In this document: positions 1 to 20,779 of the stretch, one piece after another | Layout of the letters: every line of letters starts with the position of its first letter | How positions within the stretch are numbered: the stretch's first letter is position 1 | NCBI GenBank assembly: GCA_002928535.1 | Contig: PERG01000011.1 | Coordinates: 1-64,000, forward strand | Length of the DNA stretch: 64,000 bases | Source of the DNA: Methylotenera sp. | GTDB lineage: Bacteria; Pseudomonadota; Gammaproteobacteria; Burkholderiales; Methylophilaceae | Direction: 5' to 3' | Translations under genes and position numbers: made by a program | The notes under the pieces: generated by a model | What the model was told of the DNA's origin: nothing | The model's input: only the letters and a program-made list of their open reading frames with translations | The model's database searches: none

Positions 1-195
1 AAATTCCTTTTCTGTGTTCGTTAGTTACGGACATTTCTAATAATTTACATTAAATCCTAGCAACAACTTTAACCCCTGTAAAGCAATTTTATTTACAATT
101 TGTTACTAAATATTTTAAATATTCTTTAAAGTTCGCAGGGATCAGCGTAGCAATTTATAATAGCAGGACATTAATTAATAGAATCGTCCAATTCC

Positions 196-2652
196 ATGAC
201 TCCAAATAAATGGTGGCACTATTTTCTACTTGCACTCGTCGTAGGTGCCTTATCACTTACTGCGTTAGTGGCTATAGCCGCTGCTTTAATTTATCCCGCA
301 TTGCCCTCCTTAGATGCACTGACTGATTATCGGCCTAAGTTACCCTTAAGAGTCTATTCGGAAGATGGCTTCTTGATTAGTGAGTTTGGTGAGGAGCGTC
401 GCGCCTATGTAAAGATTGAAAATGTACCGCAAAACATGAAAGACGCAGTTATAGCGATTGAAGACCGTCGCTTTTACCAACACGGCGGGATCGATACTAA
501 AGGCATCATGCGGGCGATTGTGAATAATTTATCCGGTGGAGCCAGAGAAGGTGCAAGTACCATCACCATGCAAGTAGCACGTAACTTCTTTTTAACTAGC
601 GAACGTAACTATAAACGTAAAATCAATGAAGCCCTATTAGCCCTTAAAATCGAACACAGCTTAAGCAAAGACAAGATTCTGGAACTGTACATCAACCAGA
701 TTTATTTAGGTCAGCGCGCCTATGGCTTTGCGGCAGCTTCTCAAGTTTATTATGGCAAGCCTTTAGAAAAACTAAATTTAGCTGAAACAGCATTATTAGC
801 CGGATTACCTAAAGCGCCTTCTAGTTACAATCCGTTTGTAAATCCTAAACGCGCCATTCAACGTCAAAAAGAAGTGCTGCATGATATGTATCGCTTTGGC
901 TTTATTAAGGAAGCGACTTATCAACAAGCGTTGAAACAGCCACTTCGTTTTAAAGCTTCTAAGCAATCTAGAGATCTAGACGCAGAATACGTAGCTGAAA
1001 TTGTGCGCCAAAGCTTATATGCCAAATATCATGATGATATTTATTCAAGTGGCTTGAAGGTTTATACGACGATTCGCAAAGCTAACCAAGAAGCTGCCAA
1101 TGCAGCCATTCGTGAGGGCATTATCGATTACGACCTTCGCCATGGCTATCGTGGCCCTGAAAAACAGTTAGGTCAGGATATCGTTGCTTCTAATGAAAGT
1201 ATGGATAAAGCACTTGATGAGATTGAAGTGCTGAATGGTTTAGTACCCGCCATTATCACGGAAATTGCTCCTAAAAAAGTGATCGTACGCGCAAAAAATG
1301 GCTTAGATTTAACAATTACGGGCAAAGATTTGGCTTTAGTAGATAAGACTTTGACACATAAAGATCCTAAAAAGCGTCTCTTAAAGCCAGGGGCTTTGGT
1401 ACGGGTTTTTAAACGTAGCGAAGATCGTTGGCAGATCGTTCAGTTACCCCAAATTGAAGCTGCCCTCGTGGCATTAGACCCTCAGAACGGAGCTGTACGC
1501 GCATTGGTAGGCGGTTTCGATTTCAACAAAAATAAATTCAATCATGCCACTCAAGCTTGGCGCCAACCTGGCTCCAGCTTTAAACCTTTTGTATATTCTG
1601 CCGCTCTGGAAAAAGGCTATACCCCTGCTTCTATTATTGAAGACTCGCCATTAAACTTTTCAGCAAATGAAACAGGCAATAAAGCCTGGGCGCCACAAAA
1701 CTTTGACAGCACTTTTGATGGCCCGATTCGCATGCGGCAAGCCCTGGTCAAGTCCAAAAATATGGTATCGATCCGGATCTTGCAAGCAATCGGGGTGAAT
1801 TATGCCCAGGATTACATCACCCGTTTCGGTTTTTCGCCGAAGAACCATCCTGCCTATTTAACCATGGCACTTGGCGCTGGCTCGACGACAGTCTGGCAAA
1901 TGGCAGATGCTTATGCTGTATTTGCCAACGGCGGCTACCGTATTAAACCTAATTTGATCGCAAAAATAGTAGATCAAAACGGTAAAGTGCTGATGCAAAC
2001 GCATTTTACCCAAGCTGGCAAGGATGCACCGCGTGTTATTGATGCGCGCAATGCGTTCATCATGACTTCAATGATGCAAAGCGTGGTTAGGCATGGCACT
2101 GCCATGCGTGCATTAAGGCTTGGACGGGCCGATATTGCTGGGAAAACAGGCACCACCAATGACCATTATGATGCCTGGTTCACGGGTTTTAGCCCCAAGC
2201 AGGTCGCTGTGGCATGGGTAGGCTATGACAAACCGCAGTCACTGGGCAGGACTGAAACGGGCGGAGCGGCAGCATTGCCAATATGGATTCGTTATATGGC
2301 CACTGCATTGCGCAGCTTCCCCGATGTAGATCCAATAGTGCCAGAGGGAATCAGCGCAATTAAAATTGATCCGGTGACGGGCACACGGACAGATGAAGAT
2401 GATAGTGAAGGCATTTATGAGTATTTCTATCATGAGAATCCACCCCCCGATAGCCCTTCTTTCTTCTCTGAGCTCTTTGGAGGTTCGGACGATGAAGAGA
2501 TCGATGATCCTGAAGCGGATGCCGAACAGCCTCCACCGTCTGAAAGCACTTTCTCACCTTTGCTGCCTAACCGGGCACCGCCTCAACCGTTACCGCCAAA
2601 GGTGATTAGAGAACCTCAACCCAATCCTCTAAAACCTACTAATCCAGGTTAA
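196..2652 (+). CDS. mrcA: Penicillin-binding protein 1A (bifunctional transglycosylase/transpeptidase)
   Basis: 818 aa; N-terminal TM; GT51 motifs (EDRRFYQHGGID, GASTITMQVARNFFL); transpeptidase SSFK and KTGTT motifs; Pro-rich C-terminus. Confidence 0.95.
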   Translation: MTPNKWWHYFLLALVVGALSLTALVAIAAALIYPALPSLDALTDYRPKLPLRVYSEDGFLISEFGEERRAYVKIENVPQNMKDAVIAIEDRRFYQHGGIDTKGIMRAIVNNLSGGAREGASTITMQVARNFFLTSERNYKRKINEALLALKIEHSLSKDKILELYINQIYLGQRAYGFAAASQVYYGKPLEKLNLAETALLAGLPKAPSSYNPFVNPKRAIQRQKEVLHDMYRFGFIKEATYQQALKQPLRFKASKQSRDLDAEYVAEIVRQSLYAKYHDDIYSSGLKVYTTIRKANQEAANAAIREGIIDYDLRHGYRGPEKQLGQDIVASNESMDKALDEIEVLNGLVPAIITEIAPKKVIVRAKNGLDLTITGKDLALVDKTLTHKDPKKRLLKPGALVRVFKRSEDRWQIVQLPQIEAALVALDPQNGAVRALVGGFDFNKNKFNHATQAWRQPGSSFKPFVYSAALEKGYTPASIIEDSPLNFSANETGNKAWAPQNFDSTFDGPIRMRQALVKSKNMVSIRILQAIGVNYAQDYITRFGFSPKNHPAYLTMALGAGSTTVWQMADAYAVFANGGYRIKPNLIAKIVDQNGKVLMQTHFTQAGKDAPRVIDARNAFIMTSMMQSVVRHGTAMRALRLGRADIAGKTGTTNDHYDAWFTGFSPKQVAVAWVGYDKPQSLGRTETGGAAALPIWIRYMATALRSFPDVDPIVPEGISAIKIDPVTGTRTDEDDSEGIYEYFYHENPPPDSPSFFSELFGGSDDEEIDDPEADAEQPPPSESTFSPLLPNRAPPQPLPPKVIREPQPNPLKPTNPG

Positions 2653-2664
2653 TGAGTTATTATT

Positions 2665-3294
2665 ATGGCAAAAGAAAACTTGGCACAATTGCGACAGCGA
2701 ATTGCCCAACATGCTGCGCGTATGATGGCAGAGGACGGCATATCCGATTTTGCGTATGCCAAGAAAAAAGCTGGACGCTTATTAGGGGCGATGGACAATA
2801 GTATTCTGCCTTCCAACAGCGAAATTGAAGACGAGATCAAACTCTATAATGTCCTTTATTTGAGCGAAGAGCATCCTGGCAACCTGCTGGCATTACGTAA
2901 AAATGCCCTATTTACCATGCAGTTACTGGAACGGTTTAATCCCTATTTAACTGGCGCCGTGTTGGATGGTACTGCAGGCTTAGGCAGTGAAACCCACATT
3001 CATTTATTTGCCGACAGCATGAAGGAACTGGAAATGTTTCTGTTGAATCAGGACATTCCGTTCGATATTAACGAAAAATCCTATCGGGTAATAAATGACG
3101 GTAAGCGGGATAAAAAGGGTGACCATCGTAAAAATGTGCCGGTATTTACACTGGAAACAGACACTGGGTTGATTAAGTTAAGCGTGTTTGAATCAGATGA
3201 TATCCGTATTGCCACGAAGCGCGCTGCCGATGGCAGCAATGCTGAGCGCGCCAATATTGAAGATGTAAATGCGTTGATTCAGAGCAGTGATTAG
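2665..3294 (+). CDS. Conserved hypothetical protein (209 aa)
   Basis: Full-length ORF 12 bp after mrcA; no motif I can assign with confidence. Confidence 0.75.
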   Translation: MAKENLAQLRQRIAQHAARMMAEDGISDFAYAKKKAGRLLGAMDNSILPSNSEIEDEIKLYNVLYLSEEHPGNLLALRKNALFTMQLLERFNPYLTGAVLDGTAGLGSETHIHLFADSMKELEMFLLNQDIPFDINEKSYRVINDGKRDKKGDHRKNVPVFTLETDTGLIKLSVFESDDIRIATKRAADGSNAERANIEDVNALIQSSD

Positions 3295-5089
<1,795 letters not shown>

Positions 5090-5111
5090 AAAAAATTAAG
5101 CTAACGTTAAA

Positions 5112-5567
5112 TTATTGGTATTTTTTGCCCTGCAGCATAACCCAGCCTGGTGTGTGTCTGCCCTGCGGATCCCGGTGTGTCCAATGCACAATGCCCCCTT
5201 TTGGGTTATACACGTATTCGCCATTGAATGACACTATGTCACCCACTTTCAAAGGCAGTCTTTCCGCTAAATCAATGTTATGCGCGAATAACAATGTTTG
5301 CTGAGCATTAATGCGCACCAGAAACTTCTGATGTCGTGCGCCTTTTTGATCATCCGGCAAGAGTTTTGTCACGATGCCATGACCACTGACCTGGACATCA
5401 CTTAACTTTTTTGCATACGCAGCTTCTACACTTGCATTTGCATTTTCTGCTTCTGAGCTAGTGAGCTGCGATACCGCAGATACGTCAGGAGGCGCGGCCT
5501 CACAAGCATTAAGCAGTAAGGCTAAGCTAATTAATAAACAGCGCAGCAATAAATAACGTTGGTTCAA
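5112..5567 (-). CDS. DUF3465-like lipoprotein/secreted protein
   Basis: 151 aa with lipobox-like LLLNAC; VGDIVSFNGEYVYNPKGGIVHWTHRDPQGRHTPGWV resembles DUF3465. Confidence 0.75.
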   Translation of the reverse strand: MNQRYLLLRCLLISLALLLNACEAAPPDVSAVSQLTSSEAENANASVEAAYAKKLSDVQVSGHGIVTKLLPDDQKGARHQKFLVRINAQQTLLFAHNIDLAERLPLKVGDIVSFNGEYVYNPKGGIVHWTHRDPQGRHTPGWVMLQGKKYQ

Positions 5568-5575
5568 GGCAAAAC

Positions 5576-6607
5576 TCAGACAGTTGCTGCAACTGCATTG
5601 GTCATGGCAACCAACTGATCAAGCTTGCGTTTTGCCTCACCGTTATCAATACTTTCAGCGGCCTTATGGATGCCTTGTTGCAAGGTATCGGTTAATCCAG
5701 CCACATAGATAGCGGCCCCAGCATTCAGTAAAACAATATCGCGCGCAGGGCCAGGTTTAGCCGCCAGCACATCTAAAATCATTGCTTTGGAAGCCTGTGC
5801 ATCGGCTACCTGAATACTGGCAAGCGCATGCAAACCCAGACCGAATTGCTGCGGGTTCAGCACATATTCATGCACTTGGCCATTTTTCAGTTCCGCCACA
5901 TAAGTGTCGCCAGAAAAAGAGATTTCGTCCATGCCATCCGCGCCACATACCACCATGACATGCTCGCTACCTAACTGCTGCAACACTTTGGCTAATTTAG
6001 CTGTTAAAGCTGCGGAGAATACCCCCATGACCTGGCGTTTTGCACCGGCCGGATTAGTCAGTGGCCCAAGCAGGTTGAATAGCGTGCGAATGCCTAATTC
6101 ACGGCGTACCGGCGCAGCATGTTTCATTGCACTATGATGGTTAGGCGCGAACATGAAACCGACACCAAGCTGATTCACACAATCTGCCACTTGTGCTGGC
6201 GTCTGATTGACATTAACGCCCAAAGCCTCAAGCACATCTGCACTACCACAGGTTGAGGACACTGAGCGGCCGCCATGCTTAGCTACGCTAGCACCTGCAG
6301 CCGAAGCAACAAATGCACTGACTGTCGAAACATTAAACGTCTGGATACCATCCCCGCCGGTACCACAAGTATCGACTAGATACTGGCGTTTTGCGATTTC
6401 TACTTTGGTCGATAATTCGCGCATGACAGTTGCCGCAGCGGCGATTTCATCGACGGTTTCGCCTTTGATACGTAGTGCCACTAGCAAGGCTGAAATTTGT
6501 GCTGGCGTGAGCTCACCGCCCATTACCTGGCCCATCATGTCCAGCATCACTGGCGGACTTAGATCTTGTCCACTGACCAGCATATTCAGGGTTTGGGAAT
6601 AAGACAC
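5576..6607 (-). CDS. trpD: Anthranilate phosphoribosyltransferase
   Basis: 343 aa; VDTCGTGGDGIQTFNVST, KHGGRSVSS, FMFAPNHHSAMKHAAPVRRELGIRTLFNLLGPLTNPA. Confidence 0.96.
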   Translation of the reverse strand: MSYSQTLNMLVSGQDLSPPVMLDMMGQVMGGELTPAQISALLVALRIKGETVDEIAAAATVMRELSTKVEIAKRQYLVDTCGTGGDGIQTFNVSTVSAFVASAAGASVAKHGGRSVSSTCGSADVLEALGVNVNQTPAQVADCVNQLGVGFMFAPNHHSAMKHAAPVRRELGIRTLFNLLGPLTNPAGAKRQVMGVFSAALTAKLAKVLQQLGSEHVMVVCGADGMDEISFSGDTYVAELKNGQVHEYVLNPQQFGLGLHALASIQVADAQASKAMILDVLAAKPGPARDIVLLNAGAAIYVAGLTDTLQQGIHKAAESIDNGEAKRKLDQLVAMTNAVAATV

Positions 6608-6608
6608 A

Positions 6609-7172
6609 CTAGGCTTTCAGGAAATTATTCAATAGATCGTGACCGTGTTCGGTCAAGATCGATTCCGGGTGAAACTGTACACCTTCGATCGCCAGTGTTT
6701 TATGGCGAACCCCCATAATCTCGCCATCCTCTGTCCAAGCTGTAATTTCCAGGCAATCCGGTAGCGTTTCACGCTCAATCACCAATGAGTGGTAACGCGT
6801 GGCAGTATAGGGATTGGTCAGGTCTTTAAACACACCAACATTATTGTGATGAATGAGCGAGGTTTTACCATGCATAAGCTGTTTGGCATGGATGATATTG
6901 CCACCGAACGCCTGGCCAATGCTCTGATGGCCTAAACAAACACCTAATAGAGGGATTTTGCCCGCAAATTCCTTGATGAGCGGCACACTAATGCCCGCTT
7001 CATTAGGTGTACATGGACCAGGTGAAATGACGATTTTTTCTGGCTGCATGGTATTAATCTGTTCCAGCGTAATTTCATCATTACGATGCACTTGCACATC
7101 CTGGCCCAGCTCCCCTAAATACTGTACCAAGTTATAGGTAAAGGAATCGTAATTGTCTATCATCAGCAACAT
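6609..7172 (-). CDS. trpG: Anthranilate/aminodeoxychorismate synthase component II (glutamine amidotransferase)
   Basis: 187 aa; [58 protein letters not shown]; directly upstream of trpD. Confidence 0.93.
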
Positions 7173-7338
7173 AATGTTATCTATCTACTTTTTAAGCTAA
7201 GCAACTGGTTTCAAATTTACTGTGACCTAGTGCAACACCTAAGACAGCAATCCTTAAGGGCGCTACCTTTAGATTTTTAGTCGGAATCATGAGGACATGT
7301 ATTATCTCACAGAGTACCAGGCATTAAAAACCGCGAGA

Positions 7339-8619
7339 CTACAGCGCTTCACTCGTTTGTAGGTCTGAATAAAGTTTACAGGTATTCTTACCACTTTTTT
7401 TCGCCAGGTACATGGCTTCATCTGCTTTGTTTAATAAAGTTTCCGAATCGGTTCCATCGTCCGGGTACATTGCAATCCCGATACTGCCACCCACCCTGGC
7501 GACACTGCCGCCTAAGCTGAAAGGCTTACAAAGCGTTTCAATGAGTTTATTCGCCACCATTTGTGCATTCTCTTGGTTGCCGACATTGTTCAAAATAAAG
7601 GTAAACTCATCTCCTCCAATGCGGGCTAGCACATCGGAGCCTCGCGTCACTTCGAGCAATCGGCCGGCAACTTCCTGCAAAAGCAAATCGCCATTGGCAT
7701 GACCAAAATTATCATTGACTTCTTTAAATCCATCCAAATCCATGAACAATAAGGCTACTTTGAAGGCATTTCGCTTAGCTAATGGAATAGCGTACTCCAA
7801 CCGCTCCAGAAAAAGCGCACGGTTAGGCAACCCCGTCAGGTAATCATGATGCGCAGCATGGCGGGTAGCTTCTTCTACAATTTTGCGCTGTGTAATGTCA
7901 CGCGCAATACAGACAAAGTAGCGTTGCCCGTTCAGGACCATTTCTGAAGTAGACAGCTCTAATGGAAAGCGCTGCCCGTTTGCGCGCTTGGCAGAGAGCT
8001 CATAACCACAAACCCCGATCAATACGAACTCCCGTGAACGTAGAAAGCGGTTGATGAAGGCATCATCCCCACTTTCCACCATATCCGGCATCAGGACCTG
8101 AATGCTTTTCCCAATGATTTCATCTTGTGCGTAACCAAATATTTGCTCTGCCGCTGGATTAAATCCTTGGATTTCCCCTTTATCGTTAAACGTGATGATG
8201 CCATCCAGTGCGTTATAAATGATGGCGTTTAATTGGACCTGGCTACTTTCAAGCTCCTCTCTGATACGCTTGAGGTTCATGACAATTTGCCAGAACAATT
8301 TAGCTTCCAAACCGTCCGTTACTTTCTTACCGCTAAAAACCTCTCCGGCGGTTTTGGCCACTTTATCGTCGTGGGTAAGATTGTAGATAATACAATCCGG
8401 CTGGTCTTTACACGCCAGAAAAGCTTGTCTGGTATTAGTAAAAGTAGGAATCTCATAAAACTGCGCCAGTTGTATACCAGCTGCGGCAGGATCTTTATCT
8501 ACCACCGCAATCACTTCTACCAATTGATCTTCTAAAAACAATTCAAGCAAGGCGAAACCGCCGCGCCCTGCGCCAACGATGATGACTGGCTGTCCGTGTG
8601 ATTTACGTACCATATGCAC
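7339..8619 (-). CDS. Diguanylate cyclase with N-terminal Rossmann-like domain, PAS and GGDEF
   Basis: 426 aa; N-terminal VIIVGAGRGGFALLELFL glycine-rich motif; PAS (DGIITFNDKGEIQGFNPAAEQIFGY); GGDEF core (RIGGDEFTFIL) intact. Confidence 0.88.
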   Translation of the reverse strand: MHMVRKSHGQPVIIVGAGRGGFALLELFLEDQLVEVIAVVDKDPAAAGIQLAQFYEIPTFTNTRQAFLACKDQPDCIIYNLTHDDKVAKTAGEVFSGKKVTDGLEAKLFWQIVMNLKRIREELESSQVQLNAIIYNALDGIITFNDKGEIQGFNPAAEQIFGYAQDEIIGKSIQVLMPDMVESGDDAFINRFLRSREFVLIGVCGYELSAKRANGQRFPLELSTSEMVLNGQRYFVCIARDITQRKIVEEATRHAAHHDYLTGLPNRALFLERLEYAIPLAKRNAFKVALLFMDLDGFKEVNDNFGHANGDLLLQEVAGRLLEVTRGSDVLARIGGDEFTFILNNVGNQENAQMVANKLIETLCKPFSLGGSVARVGGSIGIAMYPDDGTDSETLLNKADEAMYLAKKSGKNTCKLYSDLQTSEAL

Positions 8620-8817
8620 CCTGTTATTATTTACTGTATGCGATTGATCGTAATTATGATTTTTAAATATGCTGAAATTAATATATTACGACACGAGTTT
8701 GGTAGGATACTAGCGAGGTTTGAATTTGTATAGAAGTTGCTCATAAACAAAAGTCCGTTTACTGTGTCAAACAGCACCACGCTTCAATAACATCCAATAA
8801 TAGCTCTATTATTTAAA

Positions 8818-11286
8818 GTGACGACTATGATCATGACAGCAGCTTTTGAATGGCCTATGCCACCTTACTTTCATGTAAATCATGATGGACTTGAAGATGG
8901 GCCAGAGACCTGTTTAATCTATTTTCGTAATGGCAGTAAATCGCTAGGTGAACTCATACGATTTTTACCGGAAGAATCCAGTCTTCTATTTTTGCCGACT
9001 CGCAGTGAAGCCAATGCAGTGATTCCCCTGGATGATATTAAAAGTATGCGTTTGATTAAAGCGCTGCTTTTAAATAAACAGCAAACCTCGTTGGAAGATC
9101 GCGCAGAAGAAGTTTCCCCACCCTCTGAGCGCCAATCCTATACCGTAGAATTTGTTGACAAGGAAATTGTCAACGGGGAGACCATCGGATACTCCAATAC
9201 CGGGGTCGGTTTATATCTTTTTTTACCTAATGCAGACGATAAAGTTATCCGTTGTTTCATTCCGCATTCTGCGATCAATCATTTTCAGATAGGCCAAAAA
9301 ATCGGTGAGATTCTGATTGACCAGAATTTAGCCAGCCGCGCAGACATTGATGCTGCTTTGATTCATCAGCAAGAACTTCGCAAGCAACGTATTGGTGATT
9401 ATCTTTCCGAACATCAGATCATTACGCGTGAGCAACTGGACCAAGCCATCAAATTCCAGGAAGGTCAGCCTATCCTCAAACTGGGCGAAGCACTCAGGCA
9501 ACTTAACCTGATCTCAGAAACGCAGCTCACCGAAGCGTTGGCCAAGCAAAAGGTCAATCGAAACATGCAGCTAGGGCAAATTTTAGTCAAAATGGATATT
9601 ATTGACCACCGTACCCTGCGGGGCGTACTAGCCAAGAAAATGGGGATTCCCTATGTGGGCCTTGCCAAATTCAACTTTGATATCAACGCCATCCGGCTGA
9701 TTAGTGAATCACTCGCAGTACGCTATCATCTGATGCCTTTATGTTTGCATGAGACTAACCTCATCGTAGCCTTAGAGGATCCGCTTAATTCTGCTGCATT
9801 AGAGTATCTGCGCTTCATAACACAGAAAAAAATTGTGCCCGCAATGGCATCTCCTGAAGATATTCAAGCTGCAATTAGCCAATACTATGGTAGCGGAGCT
9901 GCCGCACTGAATATGGACTTAACCAGCAAGCGTAACAAAAGCGAAGAGTATGAAATGCATCTCACGACGCCGGCAAGCCAGATGGATGCAAATGCCCTGA
10001 AAGAGAAGCTATTCGGCGAAAGCATCGAGATGGACATACCAAAAGAGCCGATCGCCGAGTCCGACAATACCCTAGTCCAACTTATTAACAAAATGATTAT
10101 GGATGCACATGAAGATGGCGTGTCTGATATTCACATTGAAAGTTATCCAGGCAAACAGAATACCCGCATCCGTTTTCGCAAGGACGGCACCCTGATTCCT
10201 TATTTTGAAATTCCGGCTAATGCACGCGCGGCCATGATTTCACGCATTAAGATTATGGCGCAGCTGGATATTTCAGAGCGTCGCAAACCCCAAGATGGCA
10301 AGATCAATTTTGCGCATTTTGGCCCGGCAAAATTAGAATTGCGGGTCGCGACGATTCCCACCAATAATAGTTTGGAAGATATTGTTTTACGCTTACTCGC
10401 CTCTACTAAACCTTTGCCAATGGATAAGCTGGGGCTGTCGGAAGCTAATTACAAAGCATTAGACGCTTTAATGCAGCGCCCTTATGGCCTTATTCTAGTC
10501 TGCGGTCCAACAGGTTCCGGTAAAACTACAACTTTGCATTCATTATTAGGCCATATCAACTCTCCAGAACGTAAAATCTGGACTGCTGAAGACCCGGTAG
10601 AAATCACCCAAGCGGGGTTAAGGCAAGTGCAAGTCAACAGCAGAATCGGCTGGACTTTCGCTGCAGCGATGCGTAGCTTTTTACGTGCCGACCCAGACGT
10701 CATTATGGTAGGGGAAATGCGCGATGAAGAAACTACCCGGGTAGGCATCGAAGCCTCTTTAACCGGTCATTTGGTACTCTCAACACTACATACCAATAGC
10801 GCACCGGAAAGCGTGGTACGCCTTTTAGATTTAGGCATGGATCCTTTTAATTTCGCCGATGCCTTACAAGCTATTTTAGCCCAGCGCCTGGTAAAAGCCT
10901 TATGCCCAAAATGTAAGCAAGCCTATGAAGCCAGTGATGCCGAAATAGATGCCTTGGCGGATGAATTTATCTATGATACCGCTTGGTCTAAAGTAGAAAT
11001 TTTAATCCTATGGCAAAGCCAGTTTGCGCCAGATAAGAAATTTACTTTATATCGCCCGGTAGGTTGCGCAGAATGTAATAAAACGGGTTATCGAGGCCGC
11101 ATTGGGATACATGAGCTCATGACGGTATCGCCTCCTATTAAGCACTTGATCCAAACCCATGCAGTCGTCAGTGAATTATTCGAGGCGGCTTTATTTGCCG
11201 GTATGCGCACCCTTAAACAAGACGGCATCAGTAAAATATTGCAAGGGAAAACCGATTTAGCCCAAGTGCGCGCAGTTTCTATATAA
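8818..11286 (+). CDS. GspE/PulE/PilB-type secretion ATPase with N-terminal MshEN-like repeats
   Basis: 822 aa; Walker A GPTGSGKTT, AEDPVEI, LRADPDVIMVGEMRDEETT, ATLHTNSA-type motif (STLHTNSA), CxxC zinc motifs (CPKC, CAEC); tandem LGxxL repeats upstream. Confidence 0.92.
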   Translation: MTTMIMTAAFEWPMPPYFHVNHDGLEDGPETCLIYFRNGSKSLGELIRFLPEESSLLFLPTRSEANAVIPLDDIKSMRLIKALLLNKQQTSLEDRAEEVSPPSERQSYTVEFVDKEIVNGETIGYSNTGVGLYLFLPNADDKVIRCFIPHSAINHFQIGQKIGEILIDQNLASRADIDAALIHQQELRKQRIGDYLSEHQIITREQLDQAIKFQEGQPILKLGEALRQLNLISETQLTEALAKQKVNRNMQLGQILVKMDIIDHRTLRGVLAKKMGIPYVGLAKFNFDINAIRLISESLAVRYHLMPLCLHETNLIVALEDPLNSAALEYLRFITQKKIVPAMASPEDIQAAISQYYGSGAAALNMDLTSKRNKSEEYEMHLTTPASQMDANALKEKLFGESIEMDIPKEPIAESDNTLVQLINKMIMDAHEDGVSDIHIESYPGKQNTRIRFRKDGTLIPYFEIPANARAAMISRIKIMAQLDISERRKPQDGKINFAHFGPAKLELRVATIPTNNSLEDIVLRLLASTKPLPMDKLGLSEANYKALDALMQRPYGLILVCGPTGSGKTTTLHSLLGHINSPERKIWTAEDPVEITQAGLRQVQVNSRIGWTFAAAMRSFLRADPDVIMVGEMRDEETTRVGIEASLTGHLVLSTLHTNSAPESVVRLLDLGMDPFNFADALQAILAQRLVKALCPKCKQAYEASDAEIDALADEFIYDTAWSKVEILILWQSQFAPDKKFTLYRPVGCAECNKTGYRGRIGIHELMTVSPPIKHLIQTHAVVSELFEAALFAGMRTLKQDGISKILQGKTDLAQVRAVSI

Positions 11287-11304
11287 GGACATAGTAGGCC
11301 TAGA

Positions 11305-13914
11305 TTAACGCTTTAGCAGCGCTTGTTCAAAGTCTTCTAAGGTAACGGGTTTGCTGAAGTAAAACCCTTGAAAGTAGTTGCAGCCGAAGCTTTTGAGCAT
11401 TTCAAATTGCGCCCGGTTCTCTACCCCTTCTGCCACGATATTGCATTGTATGGTCCTTCCAATCGCCAGAATCATCTGGATGATGGCAGCATCATTGGAA
11501 TCGGTAAGTACGTCTTGCACAAAGGATTGATCAATCTTAATTTGGGTAACCGGTAATTTTTTAAGGTACACCAAAGAAGAATGGCCTATACCGAAATCAT
11601 CTAGTGAGATACGTACCCCTAATTCCCTCAAAGTAATAAATTTCTTTATCACATCTTCAATATTATCAATAACCGCTGTTTCAGTAAGTTCCAGCTTTAA
11701 TTTTCCAGGGTCAATACCTGTTACTTGCAATAGCGCGTTCAACTCTTGTATAAAATTTACATACAGAAATTGCTTAGCACTGATATTGACAGAAAGCCGG
11801 ATCGGATCAAATACAGGATGACCATCCCACGCTTTAAGCTGCAGGCAGGCTTGTTCTAGCACCCAATACCCTATTTTTAATATCAAGTTATTTTCTTCTG
11901 CAATCGGAATAAATTCTACAGGGCTAATCTCACCTAATTGCGGATGTTGCCAACGTAATAACACTTCAGCCGCAATCACTTCCTGGTTCTCATCGACAAT
12001 ATTTTGATAATTGAGGTAGAACTCTTTATTTTTTAGGGCAGAGTGTAACGCCGCTTCTACCGCAAAGCCTTTGTCCAAGGTTTGCTGCGTTTGCAAATCG
12101 TAAAAACGGTAAGTATTACGGCCCGCTGTTTTGGCTTGATACATAGCAGTATCGGCATGCCGCAGATGCTCTTCAAAGCTGAGCTGGTCACCATTAAATA
12201 AGGTAATGCCAATGCTCCCGGTGGTGTTAAATTCAAACACCCCAAATTGATAAGTTTTATCCAGTTCACTGAGTAATTTTTGTACAATTTCTGCGGTTTG
12301 CTCAGATGCGATAGACTGATGCTGGCTTAAATTTTCGATGATCAGGATAAACTCATCGCCACTTAACCTTGCTACCGAGTCGCCCGCCCGTATCGCATTC
12401 TGGATACGTCTGGCTACTTCAATCAAAAGTTGGTCGCCTGCATCATGTCCCTTGGTATCATTAAGTGCTTTAAAATGATCAAGGTCCACAAAAATGAGTG
12501 CGCAATAACTTTTCTCACGTTTGGCCTTTACGACCGCACGCTGGAAACGGTCAATCAATAGCCGCCGATTGGGTAGACCCGTAAGCAAATCGTAATATGC
12601 AATGTTCTCTATTTCCTGCTGGGCTTTTTTCTGTTGAGATATATCGCGAATAAACCCTGTCACGATCTGGTTATCAAAGTCATTGAGTGCAGTAAGGGTA
12701 AGTTCTACAGGGAACTCACTGCCATCCGCGCGCTGGGCGACTAACTCCACCCGCTTATTAAACATGTGTTGCTTGCCTGTCGATACGAATTCAAGGTGTT
12801 TGTGATTATGCGCATCCCGCTGAGCAGGCGGTATGATGAGATTGGCAAGCGACTGGCCCATCACATCCTTTTTTTGGTAGCCAAATATTCGCTCGGCTGC
12901 CGGGTTGAACTCGATAACTGCGCCCTTGGCATCAATGCTAATAATGCCATCTAGAGCGCCGTCGATGACGGACCTCAGTTTTCGCTCATTATTGCGCATG
13001 GCGCGCTCCGCCATATTTCTTTCTGACTGCAATACCGAAATCAGCAGCATTACCACCATGAGGGTCACAATAAACGCCCACAGCGAAAATATACCTTCAT
13101 TGGCATCCAGGCTGTAAAACGCACCATAACCTTGTGAGGTCGCCCATACTGCAATGCTAGACAGGGTAATGACCACTAAAGAGCCGCCAATAAGGCCAAA
13201 ATGCATTGAAGCCCAGATCAGGACTGGCATAATCAAGAACAAAGACAACATAAATTGCTTATTCAAGCCCATCCCCAAGTTGGAGATAATCAACTCGCAA
13301 GCCGTGAAGAAAACTAACCAGCAAGCCAGTTGGTAATACTGGGTAATATTGAGATTAATCTTGGTTTTGCGAATGCTCAAAGTAAGTGGTAATGCCAGTA
13401 TCACGCCGACTGTATCGCCTACCCACCAAATAAACCATACGCGATTCATATTCTCCGCCTTCACAATATCAGAGAGATATAACGCTAAAATTCCGCCCCC
13501 AGAAGAAACCAGCATCCCCAGCAAGGCCGCACCTATCATCAGGCCAATGTCTTTTTGCCTGATCAGTTTTTCATTGAATTGCGCTTTTCTTAATAAGTAT
13601 GCGGAGATATAAGGTGCGAGTGTATTGGTAGTGGCAATGGCTAAACTTGCCAATACCGGGATTCCCATTGAATATTCAGTAAAGGCTGCGGCAAGATAGA
13701 TGGCCGGTAAGCTGATATTGCCCCAACGTAGGATTGCCCCAACCGCGATACCACTGGGTAGCCACATGAGGGTGGCGATGGACTCTTTATAAGGCACCAG
13801 CAAACCTAATTTAGCCGTAATCAGGTAAGCGGCAAAAACGACGATATATTTCGCTATCTTGAAATAGAAGGCATTTGGCATATCACGAACTCTACATGAA
13901 AATAAGCGTGCCAA
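11305..13914 (-). CDS. MASE1-PAS-GGDEF-EAL c-di-GMP turnover protein
   Basis: 869 aa; N-terminal multi-TM MASE1-like domain; PAS; GGDEF variant ARLSGDEF; EAL domain with EVLLRW, LELTETAVI, DDFGIGHSSL, AEGVE, QGFYFSKP. Confidence 0.9.
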   Translation of the reverse strand: MARLFSCRVRDMPNAFYFKIAKYIVVFAAYLITAKLGLLVPYKESIATLMWLPSGIAVGAILRWGNISLPAIYLAAAFTEYSMGIPVLASLAIATTNTLAPYISAYLLRKAQFNEKLIRQKDIGLMIGAALLGMLVSSGGGILALYLSDIVKAENMNRVWFIWWVGDTVGVILALPLTLSIRKTKINLNITQYYQLACWLVFFTACELIISNLGMGLNKQFMLSLFLIMPVLIWASMHFGLIGGSLVVITLSSIAVWATSQGYGAFYSLDANEGIFSLWAFIVTLMVVMLLISVLQSERNMAERAMRNNERKLRSVIDGALDGIISIDAKGAVIEFNPAAERIFGYQKKDVMGQSLANLIIPPAQRDAHNHKHLEFVSTGKQHMFNKRVELVAQRADGSEFPVELTLTALNDFDNQIVTGFIRDISQQKKAQQEIENIAYYDLLTGLPNRRLLIDRFQRAVVKAKREKSYCALIFVDLDHFKALNDTKGHDAGDQLLIEVARRIQNAIRAGDSVARLSGDEFILIIENLSQHQSIASEQTAEIVQKLLSELDKTYQFGVFEFNTTGSIGITLFNGDQLSFEEHLRHADTAMYQAKTAGRNTYRFYDLQTQQTLDKGFAVEAALHSALKNKEFYLNYQNIVDENQEVIAAEVLLRWQHPQLGEISPVEFIPIAEENNLILKIGYWVLEQACLQLKAWDGHPVFDPIRLSVNISAKQFLYVNFIQELNALLQVTGIDPGKLKLELTETAVIDNIEDVIKKFITLRELGVRISLDDFGIGHSSLVYLKKLPVTQIKIDQSFVQDVLTDSNDAAIIQMILAIGRTIQCNIVAEGVENRAQFEMLKSFGCNYFQGFYFSKPVTLEDFEQALLKR

Positions 13915-13940
13915 CCTCTATTTAAAGGTTAAGCACCCCA

Positions 13941-15422
13941 TTAGGTACGGTCTAAACCTTCTTGTACTAGTTCAGCAGCACGGAGTACCGCACGCGCTTT
14001 ATTTTGGGTTTCTTCCCATTCACTTTGAGGGACTGAATCTGCCACGATCCCGGCACCAGCTTGTACATAAAGCCGATTATTTTTAATAACACCGGTACGG
14101 ATAGCAATCGCAACATCCATGTCGCCATTAAAACCCAAGTAGCCAACCGCGCCTGCATAAATACCACGTTTGCTGGGTTCCAGCTCATCAATAATTTCCA
14201 TCGCCCGTACTTTAGGCGCACCAGATACCGTACCAGCCGGGAAGGTTGCCTTAATCACATCAACCGCATCCATGCCGGGTTTTAGCTTACCCTCTACATT
14301 GCTGACGATATGCATTACGTGCGAATAACGCTCAATCATCATATTGTCGGTGACCTTCACGGAGCCGGTCACTGCCACACGACCAACATCATTGCGACCT
14401 AAATCCATGAGCTGCACATGCTCGGCTCGCTCTTTAGGATCAGCCAGCAACTCTACCGATAAGGCGATATCTTGCTCACGCGTTTTGCCGCGCGGGCGTG
14501 TTCCGGCGATTGGGCGCGCTGTAACGGTACCGTTTTCCAAACGCACCAGAATTTCCGGCGAAGCGCCTACCACGTGATGGTCGCCCATGTCGTAATAGAA
14601 CATATAAGGAGATGGATTCAGACTACGCAGTGCACGATAGAGTGACAATGGCGGTGCAGAGAACGCCTGTGACATGCGTTGCGAAAGCACGACTTGCATA
14701 ATATCGCCATCGAGAATGTATTGCTGGGCGCGTTTGACTGCCGCTTTGAAATTTGCTTCGCCAAATTCTGAGCTTGCTGGCGTTTTCGCCATCGCCACAG
14801 AAGTAGGGATGGTCACTGACTTACGCAACATTTTGAGCAAGTCATTCAAGCGTTGTTTAGCATTATCAAAAGCGTTCGCTTGAGATGGGTCGGCGTATAC
14901 GATGAAATAAAGCTTGCCACTCAGGTTATCCACTACCGCCAACTCTTCAGACACCATGAGCAAAACATCCGGTGTATCGATTGCGTCTGGCTTCACGGTA
15001 TCGGCAAGGCGTTTTTCGATATAGCGTACCGTCTCATAACCAAAATAGCCCGCCAGGCCACCCGTGAAACGCGGCAAGCCTTGATAAGGCGGCGTCTTGA
15101 AGCGGGATTGATAGTCTTTAACGAAATCCAAGGGGTTAATATTGTCGGCAGACTCAATTACGGTATCTTGTACGATTACTTCTACTTTGCGGCCACGCGC
15201 AACGATACGTGTTTTAGCAGGTAAACCGATAATAGAGTAACGGCCGAAACGTTCACCTCCCTGCACGGATTCCAGCAGGTATGAATAAGGCTGATTTGCC
15301 AATTTGAGGTACAGGGAAAGCGGAGTATCGAGGTCGGCAAAAGTTTCCAGCACGAGCGGGATACGGTTATAGCCTTGCGCGCTGAGCGCGTTGAATTCTT
15401 CTAAACTGATGGTATTAAACAT
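13941..15422 (-). CDS. trpE: Anthranilate synthase component I
   Basis: Track ORF extends to 15461, but the start [10 protein letters not shown] at 15422 fits homologs better; [44 protein letters not shown] motifs. Confidence 0.94.
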
Positions 15423-15571
15423 ACATTTCCTAACTTGATGGGTCGATGATATGGCCGGCAAATTGCCGCTACTAGCTTCGCCACCATCGCCAACTGAGTG
15501 TTTTATTGTTGAGCAGGAAATACATATTAATTAATTGAATACTTATAGTTCTTATTTCAACGCAGTGAAGA

Positions 15572-16243
15572 TTATGTTGCGATCAGCTCCACTGCATCCC
15601 CTATATGGTCAATCAATGCGTCTACCGCACCGATTTCCATACTATACCCTTGATTATAGCCATAAGGCACGGTAAATACATAGCAGCCTGCATTACGCGC
15701 TGCCTCTACATCGGTTTTAGAATCGCCAATCAACAAGCTTTCATTGACCGGTATACCAAACTGCTCGCAGATATATATAATTTGATCCGGGTCAGGCTTC
15801 TTTTTTTTCAGAGTATCGCCAGATACCACTACATCAAAATAAGGCAGTAGCTGGCTTTGCTTCAGTAAAGGCAATGTAAAAGCCTCAGGCTTATTGGTAA
15901 TACAAGCCAACTTGAATCCGGCTGCTTTGATGGCGATTAAGGCTTCAATCACATTTGGATAAGGCTGGCTCTCAGCGACCACTTTTGCATAGGCTTCAAA
16001 GAACAGCGGCTGCGCTTTTGCCAATAACTCACTTGTCGGCTCGGCCTTATAAGCGTGGTTAAGACAGCGCTTAATTAATATTTGCGCACCTTCACCGATA
16101 AACCCTTGTATCTGCTCTGCAGCCAGCTGGGGCTTACCCATTGCTGCCAACATATGGTTTGCTGCCTGCGCGATTTCAGGGGCGGTATGCACCAGCGTGC
16201 CGTCAAGATCAATCATGACGACTTTCACTTTAAATTTGCTCAC
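15572..16243 (-). CDS. gph: Phosphoglycolate phosphatase (HAD family)
   Basis: 223 aa; MIDLDGTLVHTAPEI, ITNKPEAF, GDSKTDVEAARNAG. Confidence 0.92.
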   Translation of the reverse strand: MSKFKVKVVMIDLDGTLVHTAPEIAQAANHMLAAMGKPQLAAEQIQGFIGEGAQILIKRCLNHAYKAEPTSELLAKAQPLFFEAYAKVVAESQPYPNVIEALIAIKAAGFKLACITNKPEAFTLPLLKQSQLLPYFDVVVSGDTLKKKKPDPDQIIYICEQFGIPVNESLLIGDSKTDVEAARNAGCYVFTVPYGYNQGYSMEIGAVDALIDHIGDAVELIAT

Positions 16244-16376
16244 GACTTATCTAAAAATTAAAATATCTAAACAAGACTAGGCGTTAAAGAAAATTTAATT
16301 ACGATGCATACATTTGAGTATGTGAGCGTTTAAATTTTCTTTAACAACAAAGTTTGTGACGATACTTTTAGTTTTT

Positions 16377-17096
16377 TTAAGCTGCAGCCAATGAAGCACG
16401 CATCGCGCTGACTACAGTGTCGTAGCGGTTTTTATCATTTTCACCAGGCGCACCAAAAATCGCACTGCCTGCTACGAATGTATCGGCTCCGGCACGCGCG
16501 ATTTCAGCGATATTTTGTGCATTCACGCCACCGTCCACTTCCAGCCAGATTTGACGACCGGTTTTTTCGTAGTAGGCATCAATACGTGCACGGGCCAATT
16601 TCAATTTTTCGAGGGTTTCAGGAATGAATTTCTGACCGCCGAAGCCAGGGTTCACAGACATTAATAAAATCATATCGACCTTATCCATCACGTGATCCAG
16701 GTAGCTCAGTGAGGTGGCCGGATTAAATACCAAGCCGGATTTACAGCCCAAATCACGCACCATGGCCAGGCTGCGGTCAATATGGTCAGAAGCTTCGGGA
16801 TGGAACGTGATGATATTGGCACCAGCCTTAGCAAAGTCAGGGATGATGCGGTCAACTGGTTTTACCATCAAGTGCACGTCAATTAAGGCGCCGACTTTTT
16901 TTGCTGTTTCACGGATGGCGTCACATACCAGCGGACCTATCGTCAGGTTAGGCACATAATGATTATCCATTACATCGAAGTGCACGATGTCGGTACCGGA
17001 GTTGATGACATCCTCAATCTCCTGACCGAGTTTGGCGAAATTCGCAGAAAGAATACTAGGGGCGATTCTAAAAGTTTTATCCATGGCTACATCCAT
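16377..17096 (-). CDS. rpe: Ribulose-phosphate 3-epimerase
   Basis: 239 aa; [64 protein letters not shown]. Confidence 0.96.
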
Positions 17097-17397
17097 AATG
17101 TGTTTTAACAGGCTAAATTTAGCGTAACTAAATTGATTCTAAGCCGTTATTTTAACTTTATTTCTTCGTTTACATAAGCTTCTTGCTTAACATTAGCCAA
17201 TACGGGAAAATTACACCTTGGACCATATTCATCATTCTTTAAGACGAATGAAAATTGACGGTCTAAAATCAAGTCAAGAATTTAATTGAGATGTAGCGTT
17301 AGGAGACGCGCAGCGAATGACGCACACAGATCAAAACCGACATGGCGCACGGCAATCGTTGCAACGAATTGCTTATCAAAGGGATTGCTAGCGCGCT

Positions 17398-18642
17398 ATG
17401 CAGCTCTATGTCATCGGCGTTAACCACACGACCGCACCCATCCAGATTCGCGAACATGTCGCGTTCGATAGCGAGCATCTTGGCAGCGCCTTACGCGAAC
17501 TGACCCTGCATGACGCCAGCGAGGCAGCAATCCTGTCGACTTGCAACCGCACCGAACTATACTGCAGCACAGATAATCCGGCCAAGCCGCTTGCCTGGCT
17601 ATCGCAATACCATAAGCTCGAAACCAACAGCATCCAACCTTATATCTATACCCTGCCGGATAACGAAGCCGTGAAACATGCGTTCCGTGTGGCCTCCGGC
17701 TTAGATAGCATGGTGTTGGGTGAGCCGCAGATCCTAGGCCAATTTAAGCAATCAGTGAAAATCGCTCAGGATGCCGGTACGCTGGGTACTTTGCTACATA
17801 AGCTATTCCAACGCACGTTTGAAGTGGCTAAAGAAGTGCGTACTAATACCGATATCGGCGCCAATTCGATATCTATGGCCGCAGCAGCCGTAAAATTAGC
17901 GCAGCGTATCTTTGGCGACATCAGCGGCCAGAAGGTATTGTTTATCGGTGCCGGTGAGATGATCAGCTTATGTGCTGACCACTTTGCCGCGCAGAAACCC
18001 AAATCGATCGTAGTTGCCAACCGCACACTGGAACGCGGCATCGAACTCGCGGGGAAAATCGGCGGCGAAGCGATTTTGTTAAATGATCTGCCAGAGCGCT
18101 TTGCTGAGTTCGATATTGTGGTCACTTCTACGGCTAGCCAATTACCGATTATCGGTTTAGGCATGGTAGAAAGTGCGATTAAAACCCGCCGGCACCGGCC
18201 GATTTTTATGGTGGACCTTGCCGTACCTCGGGATATCGAACCGCAAGTCGCTGAGCTTGATGATGTATTCCTGTATACGGTGGATGACTTGGCACAAGTC
18301 GTCACTGATGGCATGGTCAATCGCCAGGAAGCGGCCATTGATGCCGAAATGATCGTCGCCGCGCGCGTTGAAAATTTCATGCATTGGTTGAAAAAACGTG
18401 AAGCTGTGCCTACTATCAAAGCTTTGCGTGACCAGGCTGAGGCCATGCGTAAAATTGAGTTGGAAAAAGCACTTAAGCTCATTCAAAAAGGTGAAAGCCC
18501 GGATAAAGTGCTGGAAGCCTTAAGTACCGCGCTCACCAACAAGTTTTTGCATGCGCCCAGCCATGCCTTGAATCTTGCCCAGGGTGACGAGCATGTGCGG
18601 CTAGAGCAGTTGATGAAACAGTTGTACCAGATAAAAAATTAA
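17398..18642 (+). CDS. hemA: Glutamyl-tRNA reductase
   Basis: 414 aa; [57 protein letters not shown]. Confidence 0.97.
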
Positions 18643-18658
18643 TGGGAAGCTACAATGA

Positions 18659-18774
18659 AAAATACAAATTTTGGAATGTAGAGCAAGGACGCCCCGAACA
18701 CAATCACAGTACACAAGGTACGGCGAATTGATGAGCACCGCGCAACGTAGCAATACGTCCAAAATTTGAATTTT
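18659..18774. repeat. Imperfect hairpin-like intergenic element between hemA and prfA
   Basis: Terminal inverted repeats AAAATACAAATTTTGGA / TCCAAAATTTGAATTTT (16 of 17 positions complementary) around an 82-bp interior centred on GTAC-ACAAG-GTAC. Confidence 0.7.
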
Positions 18775-18784
18775 AGAGATTAAA

Positions 18785-19867
18785 ATGAAACCTAGCATGA
18801 TTAGAAAGCTCGCTACCTTAAGCGAGCGATTAGAAGAACTGAACCGCTTAATGAGCAGCGAAGGCGTCACCAACAATATGGATACGTACAGAAAGCTCAC
18901 GCAGGAGCACGCTGAAATAACGCCTATCGTTGAGCAGTATCATGCGTTTACGCAGGCTGAGGCTGATATTAAAGAAGCTCAAAATATGTTGAGCGATCCG
19001 GACATGAAGGAATTTGCCCAAGAAGAAATTGAAAACGGCAAAGCGAAATTAGAGGCCATTGAAAAAGCCTTGCAAACGTTGTTATTACCTAAAGACCCCA
19101 ATGATGAAAAAGGCCTTTTCCTTGAGATTCGGGCGGGCACGGGTGGTGATGAATCCGGTTTATTTGCCGGGGACCTATTCCGCATGTATAGCCGATATGC
19201 CGAACGTCAGCGCTGGAAAGTCGAGATCATGTCTGCCAATGAATCGGAGATTGGTGGTTACAAGGAAATCATTGCCAAAATTGACGGCTACGGCGCATAT
19301 TCCAAACTCAAGTTCGAATCTGGCGGCCATCGTGTGCAACGCGTGCCGGATACCGAAACCCAGGGTCGTATTCATACCTCTGCCTGTACCGTTGCCGTCT
19401 TACCAGAAGTCGATGAAATCAATGACGTTGTGATCAATCCGGCAGATATCCGTATCGATACTTACCGTGCCTCTGGCGCTGGCGGCCAGCACATTAACAA
19501 AACCGATTCCGCAGTGCGTATCACGCATAATCCAACGGGGATCGTCGTGGAATGCCAGGAAGGCCGCAGCCAGCATGCCAACAAGGCACAGGCAATGCAG
19601 GTGCTGGCAGCACGTATTAAAGCGGCACAAGTCAATGAACAGCAAAGCAAAATTGCCAGCGAGCGTAAATCATTGATCGGTTCCGGCGATCGCAGTGAAC
19701 GTATTCGCACTTACAACTATCCGCAAGGACGCATCACTGACCATCGTATTAACCTAACTTTATATAAGATCGACGCAATTACTGAAGGCGATATGGATGA
19801 ACTGATTGGCGCACTGATGGCTGAGCACCAAGCCGACTTGCTTGCAACACTAGGCGATGATAATTAA
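18785..19867 (+). CDS. prfA: Peptide chain release factor 1
   Basis: 360 aa; [38 protein letters not shown]. Confidence 0.97.
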
Positions 19868-19891
19868 CTGCTTTAATAGCAGGAAAATGTT

Positions 19892-20779
19892 TTGAACCAC
19901 ACACCAATAACCATTCGCGAGCATGGCTTATTTGCCCAACAGCAGCTTATCCAGTCCCTCGCTTTAGATAGTCACGAAGCCCAACTAGAAGCGCAGTTAC
20001 TACTGCAAACCGCTTTAAAGGTAGAGCGTGCATGGCTCATTGCCCATGAAATCGATGCTTTGGGAGCTAATAACCATGCCGAGTTTCAAACGCTACTTTT
20101 ACGTCGCTTACAAGGGGAGCCTATTGCCTACATACTCGGTTATCGCGAATTCTATGGTTTAAAACTATGCGTTACGCCGGATACCTTGATACCTAGGCCG
20201 GATACAGAAACATTGGTAGAAGCTGCATTAGCAAAAATTCCTCTCCATACAAAGGTTGAAATCCTCGATTTAGGAACTGGAGCAGGCGCGATTGCGTTAG
20301 CTGTTGCCGATCATCGACCGCATGCACAATTGATGGCCATAGATGCAAGTGAAAATGCGCTAACTATTGCCCAGAAAAATGCGAAAAACTTAAATATCGC
20401 CAATGTGCAGTTTCTGCATAGCGATTGGTTTTCGACTATTAACCCCAAACGCTTTGACTTAATTCTGAGTAATCCGCCTTATATCGAAGCAAGTGATACA
20501 CATCTTCAACAGGGCGATTTACGATTTGAACCGATCACTGCGTTAGCTTCCGGCCCCGATGGCTTAGATGATATCCGCCGGATCGTGCAGGATTGCCTGG
20601 TTTACCTGAAACCACAGGGCTGGCTTATGTTGGAGCATGGCTTTAACCAAGCACAAGCCGTAGCCGATTTAATGGCAGATAGTGGCTTGGTAGATATTGC
20701 AACTATTAAAGATTTGGGTGGCAATGATCGTGTCACTATCGCGAAAAATCCGCTTATTGTCAGCACGCATTGGCATTAA
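19892..20779 (+). CDS. prmC: Release factor glutamine methyltransferase
   Basis: 295 aa; FYGLKLCVTPDTLIPRPDTETLVE, DLGTGAGAIALA, SNPPYIE; follows prfA. Initiation is TTG at 19892 or nearby. Confidence 0.94.
   Translation: MNHTPITIREHGLFAQQQLIQSLALDSHEAQLEAQLLLQTALKVERAWLIAHEIDALGANNHAEFQTLLLRRLQGEPIAYILGYREFYGLKLCVTPDTLIPRPDTETLVEAALAKIPLHTKVEILDLGTGAGAIALAVADHRPHAQLMAIDASENALTIAQKNAKNLNIANVQFLHSDWFSTINPKRFDLILSNPPYIEASDTHLQQGDLRFEPITALASGPDGLDDIRRIVQDCLVYLKPQGWLMLEHGFNQAQAVADLMADSGLVDIATIKDLGGNDRVTIAKNPLIVSTHWH

Follow-up and report, generated by a model that had tools for sequence, protein, structure and literature searches.

Probable layered assembly of three c-di-GMP-related genes at the trpE-trpG junction of a Methylotenera genome

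We have analyzed three adjacent genes, here called P0001, P0002 and P0003, in a 64,000-nucleotide stretch of Methylotenera sp. DNA (the window). The trio spans 6.6 kb and all three products carry c-di-GMP domains. The genes are probably not a co-selected module; they appear to have been assembled in layers at the junction of trpE and trpG, the ATPase most likely being an extra c-di-GMP-gated motor that acts in trans. This reading is built on the domains, motifs, synteny, co-divergence and platform protein numbers that we observed. The old layer would be a P0003-type MASE1-PAS-GGDEF-EAL enzyme held in a tight unit with trpE across the Methylophilaceae. The second layer would be an orphan PilB/GspE-type ATPase (P0002) inserted downstream on the opposite strand, as also in genome G038, and the third, found in the window genome only, a Rossmann-PAS-GGDEF diguanylate cyclase (P0001).

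Overview of the locus

The features of the locus are as follows.

15572..17096, minus strand: gph and rpe, upstream of trpE, synteny conserved
13941..15461, minus strand: trpE, anthranilate synthase component I; true ATG about 15423
11305..13881, minus strand: P0003, MASE1-PAS-[S]GDEF-EAL, predicted membrane-bound c-di-GMP phosphodiesterase or dual enzyme; ATG about 13881
8833..11286, plus strand: P0002, orphan PilB/GspE-superfamily ATPase; likely ATG about 8833
8839..9291, plus strand: tandem beta-barrel N-terminus of P0002, residues about 8-158, two small 5-strand barrels
9298..9639, plus strand: P0002 residues 161-274, four 24-residue MshEN-type motifs
7339..8613, minus strand: P0001, Rossmann-like (GAGRGG)-PAS-GGDEF, predicted diguanylate cyclase; likely ATG about 8613
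6609..7172, minus strand: trpG, anthranilate synthase component II, on the far side of the insertion
4301..6607, minus strand: trpD, a DUF3465 gene and trpC, the rest of the trp operon

Pfam and NCBIfam matches place the trio inside the trp operon, with rpe-gph-trpE upstream of P0003 and trpG-trpD-DUF3465-trpC downstream of P0001. P0002 is antisense to both of its flanking genes. The three reading frames first described (7339-8619 and 11305-13914 on the minus strand, 8818-11286 on the plus strand) are open, with their domains intact; the frames are real and the starts were slightly inflated, the likely ATGs, for which homolog alignment was among the bases, lying inside them. The original prediction described the domains of the trio correctly, but missed the trp-operon setting and the Rossmann-like domain of P0001. 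An Rfam search of window positions 1-20000 gave no match and hence no known trp leader. Matches to consensus promoters and terminators occurred no more often than in shuffled sequence and were left unused. The DUF3465 gene between trpD and trpC (window 5112-5567; also L125 and L223) is kept in several Methylophilaceae.

The trpE-trpG junction is insertion-prone. In locus L228 fabA-fabB (2487-4330) sits between the two genes, and trpE-trpG gaps of 1.8-2.0 kb, like that of L228 in size alone, occur in other Methylophilaceae genera (L225-L227, L229-L231). In Pseudomonas aeruginosa the R/F pyocin cluster is located between trpE and trpG (PMC9810705); it resembles the window in being an insertion at this junction, but its cargo is unrelated.

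Distribution of the three genes

The trio was originally proposed to be a local circuit and a candidate undescribed system. It was found in no other genome among about 150 related genomes examined; the three genes are not co-conserved, and the candidate has to be given up, the trio not being a conserved module. P0002 and P0003 occur together at the trpE site in the window genome (G000) and in one other, G038 (L125). A close relative of G038, G101 (TrpE 96% identical), has the arrangement trpE-P0003-87 bp-trpG without the ATPase, and appears to represent an empty site for the ATPase insertion. Neighbour maps of P0002 homologs, which were read for large conserved clusters only, because the small genes that a simple ORF caller predicts in high-GC relatives are doubtful, revealed no conserved neighbour. 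Of 96 relatives, 4 (L062, L091, L125, L127) have a GGDEF/EAL gene no more than 500 bp from the ATPase, where chance would give 2.6 of 96 (P 0.26) at the density of the window genome, with about 31 GGDEF domains, or 0.9 of 96 (P 0.013) at the density within the loci. Clustering of such genes near the ATPase is thus at most a weak tendency.

P0001 has PAS and GGDEF domains (E 2e-48 for GGDEF; Pfam/NCBIfam) and the features of a diguanylate cyclase, namely an intact GGDEF motif and an RxxD I-site (RGSD). Its N-terminus forms an extra Rossmann-like domain with the motif GAGRGG, beta-alpha-beta in the structure model. This N-terminus is matched in 3 of 150 Methylophilaceae genomes besides the window, once weakly (E 4e-4) and always at other sites. 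Homologs of up to 67% identity are scattered over genomes from other families; none has the ATPase beside it in the loci read, and the nearest relatives of P0001 seem by sequence to lie mostly outside the Methylophilaceae. Short relatives of about 285 aa, in which the Rossmann-like domain is fused straight to GGDEF without PAS, were seen in other families (L149, L150, L167, L168).

The presence of three c-di-GMP-domain products within 6.6 kb, the adjacency of P0002 and P0003 in G038 as well, and the GGDEF/EAL proteins directly beside ATPase relatives in the four loci named above could also be read as a recent, lineage-specific module, in which P0001 would supply c-di-GMP to the neighbouring ATPase and P0003 would break it down. 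Such a circuit is improbable, given that the trio is not co-conserved, that the ATPase gene runs opposite to its two neighbours, that the conserved partner of P0003 is trpE, and that chance GGDEF neighbours are not rare in a genome with so many GGDEF domains. Since the site is common to G000 and G038, there may have been some co-selection of P0002 and P0003 in that lineage.

A c-di-GMP enzyme gene downstream of trpE

P0003 orthologs, taken as matches of >120 bits to the N-terminal 320 residues, were found in 31 of the 150 Methylophilaceae genomes sampled, in seven genera, and in 31 of 31 the gene lies directly downstream of trpE. The original prediction, which had grouped P0003 with the ATPase and P0001, overlooked this association with its conserved partner. 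The P0003 start is 1-60 nt past the trpE stop, often 1-10 nt (e.g. tgaGCATG); the likely ATG of the window copy is 59 nt past it. P0003 stays with trpE even where trpG is elsewhere, as in 14 genomes of g1, the genus of the window. The pair was seen at window 11305-15461, in L125 and in L192-L221. P0003 has co-diverged with TrpE under purifying selection: its pairwise distances track those of TrpE (Mantel r 0.91, 0 of 2000 permutations; the 31 aligned sequences of this set differ from the 31 matches above in being full-length only and in including two g6 proteins), and the median dN/dS is 0.07 for P0003 vs 0.03 for TrpE.

The EAL catalytic residues (ExLxR, N, ELTE, DDFG, K, EGVE, Q) are present in 31 of 31 P0003-type sequences, together with [S/G]GDEF and an RxxD I-site. 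The best NCBIfam model is DibA, at 466 bits against a cut-off of 980. P0003 is most likely a membrane-anchored c-di-GMP phosphodiesterase, an enzymatic output predicted from these residues. It shares a PAS-GGDEF-EAL core with RbdA (PA0861) and DibA-type enzymes, from which it differs in its MASE1 sensor and its conserved place downstream of trpE. Broken copies were found in three genomes (G062, G071, G073).

Two g6 genomes (L225/L226) have a PAS-PAS-GGDEF-EAL protein after trpE, with an N-terminus unlike that of P0003. Outside the Methylophilaceae no P0003 ortholog was found beside trpE among the loci checked, and a GGDEF-EAL gene follows trpE in one (L307) of about 65 trpE loci of other families, which is about chance level. 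That gene (L307 159-3080, genome G241) encodes a MASE1-CHASE-GGDEF-EAL protein and is directly downstream of trpE. A literature search of incomplete coverage found no publication describing a trp operon with a GGDEF/EAL gene.

The trpE-P0003 link may be functional. If the two genes are co-transcribed, as we infer, co-expression would tie c-di-GMP breakdown to tryptophan/anthranilate synthesis, and anthranilate-making cells would lower their c-di-GMP. The adjacency in 31 of 31 genomes with starts 1-60 nt past the stop, its retention in the 14 g1 genomes where trpG has moved away, the dN/dS of about 0.07 and the presence of GGDEF-EAL proteins of two other architectures after trpE (g6 L225/L226; L307) all speak for this. 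Because anthranilate is known to reduce c-di-GMP in four species (PMC5561115), the coupling is plausible, but no more: the junction also holds unrelated genes (fabAB, and the pyocins of P. aeruginosa; PMC9810705), P0003 is absent or lost in many family members (broken in G062, G071 and G073), and a single old insertion, vertically inherited, could explain the synteny. We consider a functional link possible rather than probable. Such a link would involve a single gene of the trio and does not conflict with layered assembly of the locus. More tentatively, a c-di-GMP phosphodiesterase may be resident in the Methylophilaceae trp operon and couple anthranilate/tryptophan synthesis to the planktonic-sessile switch by co-expression, the site having also recruited a c-di-GMP-gated motor and a cyclase in this lineage. 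The trp-operon phosphodiesterase is the better lead because of its trpE synteny, co-divergence, purifying selection and intact EAL residues.

An orphan ATPase with MshEN-type motifs

P0002 belongs to the T2SSE/PilB-GspE superfamily (PF00437, 404.7 bits vs a cut-off of 24.9, E 4e-121). It consists of tandem barrels, four MshEN-type motifs, an MshEN C-subdomain and a T2SSE motor with Walker A (GPTGSGKTTT), GEMRD and two CxxC; Walker A, the Walker B-like motif and the zinc tetracysteine are invariant or nearly so in 92 homologs. It scores below the cut-offs of the equivalog models for PilB (TIGR02538, 524.6 vs 675.65 bits), GspE (TIGR02533, 460.5 vs 630.25) and TfpB (NF053534, 412.9 vs 850). The structure of residues 1-372 was predicted with a mean pLDDT of 88, the two barrels covering residues about 17-158. 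For the N-terminal barrels, sub- to near-threshold Pfam matches (DUF6982/DUF4388) and weak, Tudor-like structural matches were obtained, and neither Pfam nor structure matching gave a named function. Full-length or near full-length relatives occur in about fifteen of 150 Methylophilaceae genomes searched; the 80 named loci of the family are mainly from Burkholderiales, and full-length homologs are also found in dozens of Burkholderiales and Gammaproteobacteria. P0002 represents an orphan motor type that is widespread among Beta- and Gammaproteobacteria.

The MshEN domain foreseen in the original prediction is matched by PF05157 (74.9 bits, E 5e-21), alongside T2SSE, and the NCBIfam c-di-GMP motif NF053729 scores 73.6 bits (cut-off 38). 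Four motifs of c-di-GMP type, conserved in 92 relatives, start at residues 161, 191, 221 and 251, with a length of 24 residues and a period of 30. Compared with the published consensus, (R/K/L)LGxx..Q with a spacer of 5 residues (PMC11731258), the changes are mostly conservative, with I for L at some positions. The spacer in P0002 is 6 residues and not the 5 of the MshE type, so we class the protein as having MshEN-type domains and not as an MshE. Motifs 1-3 all retain K/R at position 1, G at 3 and Q at 24; motif 4 has Q/P at position 1, and K replaces the final Q (position 24). With the 6-residue spacing and the lysine for the last glutamine, c-di-GMP binding at motif 4 is uncertain. The best structural matches to the P0002 model are MshE-c-di-GMP (5htl) and PilF GSPII-B (8pdk).

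P0002 may thus bind c-di-GMP, and both binding and the direction of gating are predicted from these motifs and structural matches. It might alternatively bind none, its MshEN-type helices merely docking on the pilus platform, much as PilF GSPII-A has the fold and does not bind c-di-GMP (PMC12002112). The spacer and the changes at positions 1 and 24 of motif 4 would fit a non-binding protein, which we nevertheless regard as rather unlikely, since motifs 1-3 are intact at K/R1, G3 and Q24, G3 and Q24 in these motifs are conserved at ~90% or more across the family, and PilF tolerates isoleucine in place of leucine (PMC12002112).

As originally stated, P0002 has no adjacent pilC, pilin or secretin gene, and the suggestion that it acts in trans is strengthened by the census of motors in the genome, which encodes nine T2SSE-family ATPases and has T2SSF platform genes at only 3 loci. 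These loci are PilB+PilC, a cluster that contains MshL and includes an ATPase, and a cluster of Tad-like appearance, to judge by gene size and order, in which there are two short platform genes. Without a platform gene of their own are P0002, a TfpB-like protein (C5, 848 bits) and a GAF-MshEN-T2SSE protein. P0002 would most likely be an additional pilus-type extension motor, working in trans on the PilC/T4P or MSHA-like machinery of the genome, as we infer for its target, gated by c-di-GMP at the MshEN motifs like MshE and PilF, and encoded away from pilC as is TfpB in Acinetobacter baylyi. TfpB, an additional PilB-like ATPase besides the PilB encoded with pilC, serves the same T4P (PMC8213720; PMC11656802) and offers a known example of a supplementary motor.

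P0002 resembles MshE (Vibrio cholerae) and PilF (Thermus thermophilus) in combining a T2SSE motor with MshEN-type four-helix motifs, but differs from them in its two successive motif pairs with the longer spacer, its extra tandem beta-barrel N-terminus and the lack of pilus genes beside it. It also differs from TfpB, falling short of that model (412.9 vs 850) in a genome that has a separate TfpB-like protein. The GAF-MshEN-T2SSE ATPase (797 aa; G000 C8, L120 8351-10744, divergent from argJ) and its Methylophilaceae relatives are 64% identical to P0002 in the motor region and are also orphans, whereas a GAF domain replaces the tandem barrel and the gene is beside argJ, an arrangement similar in several genera.

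Conclusions

The proteins are of known kinds: P0002 is an orphan ATPase of the PilB/GspE superfamily that carries MshEN-type motifs, and P0003 a trp-linked GGDEF-EAL enzyme. The candidate undescribed system gives way to two testable points, an ATPase subfamily and a trpE-linked c-di-GMP enzyme. The subfamily is large and apparently unnamed, and comprises orphan pilus-type ATPases of Beta- and Gammaproteobacteria in which a tandem barrel N-terminus precedes four MshEN motifs. The c-di-GMP enzyme has remained next to trpE while a methylotroph family diversified and, if the two genes are co-expressed, amino acid synthesis would be linked to c-di-GMP in these bacteria.
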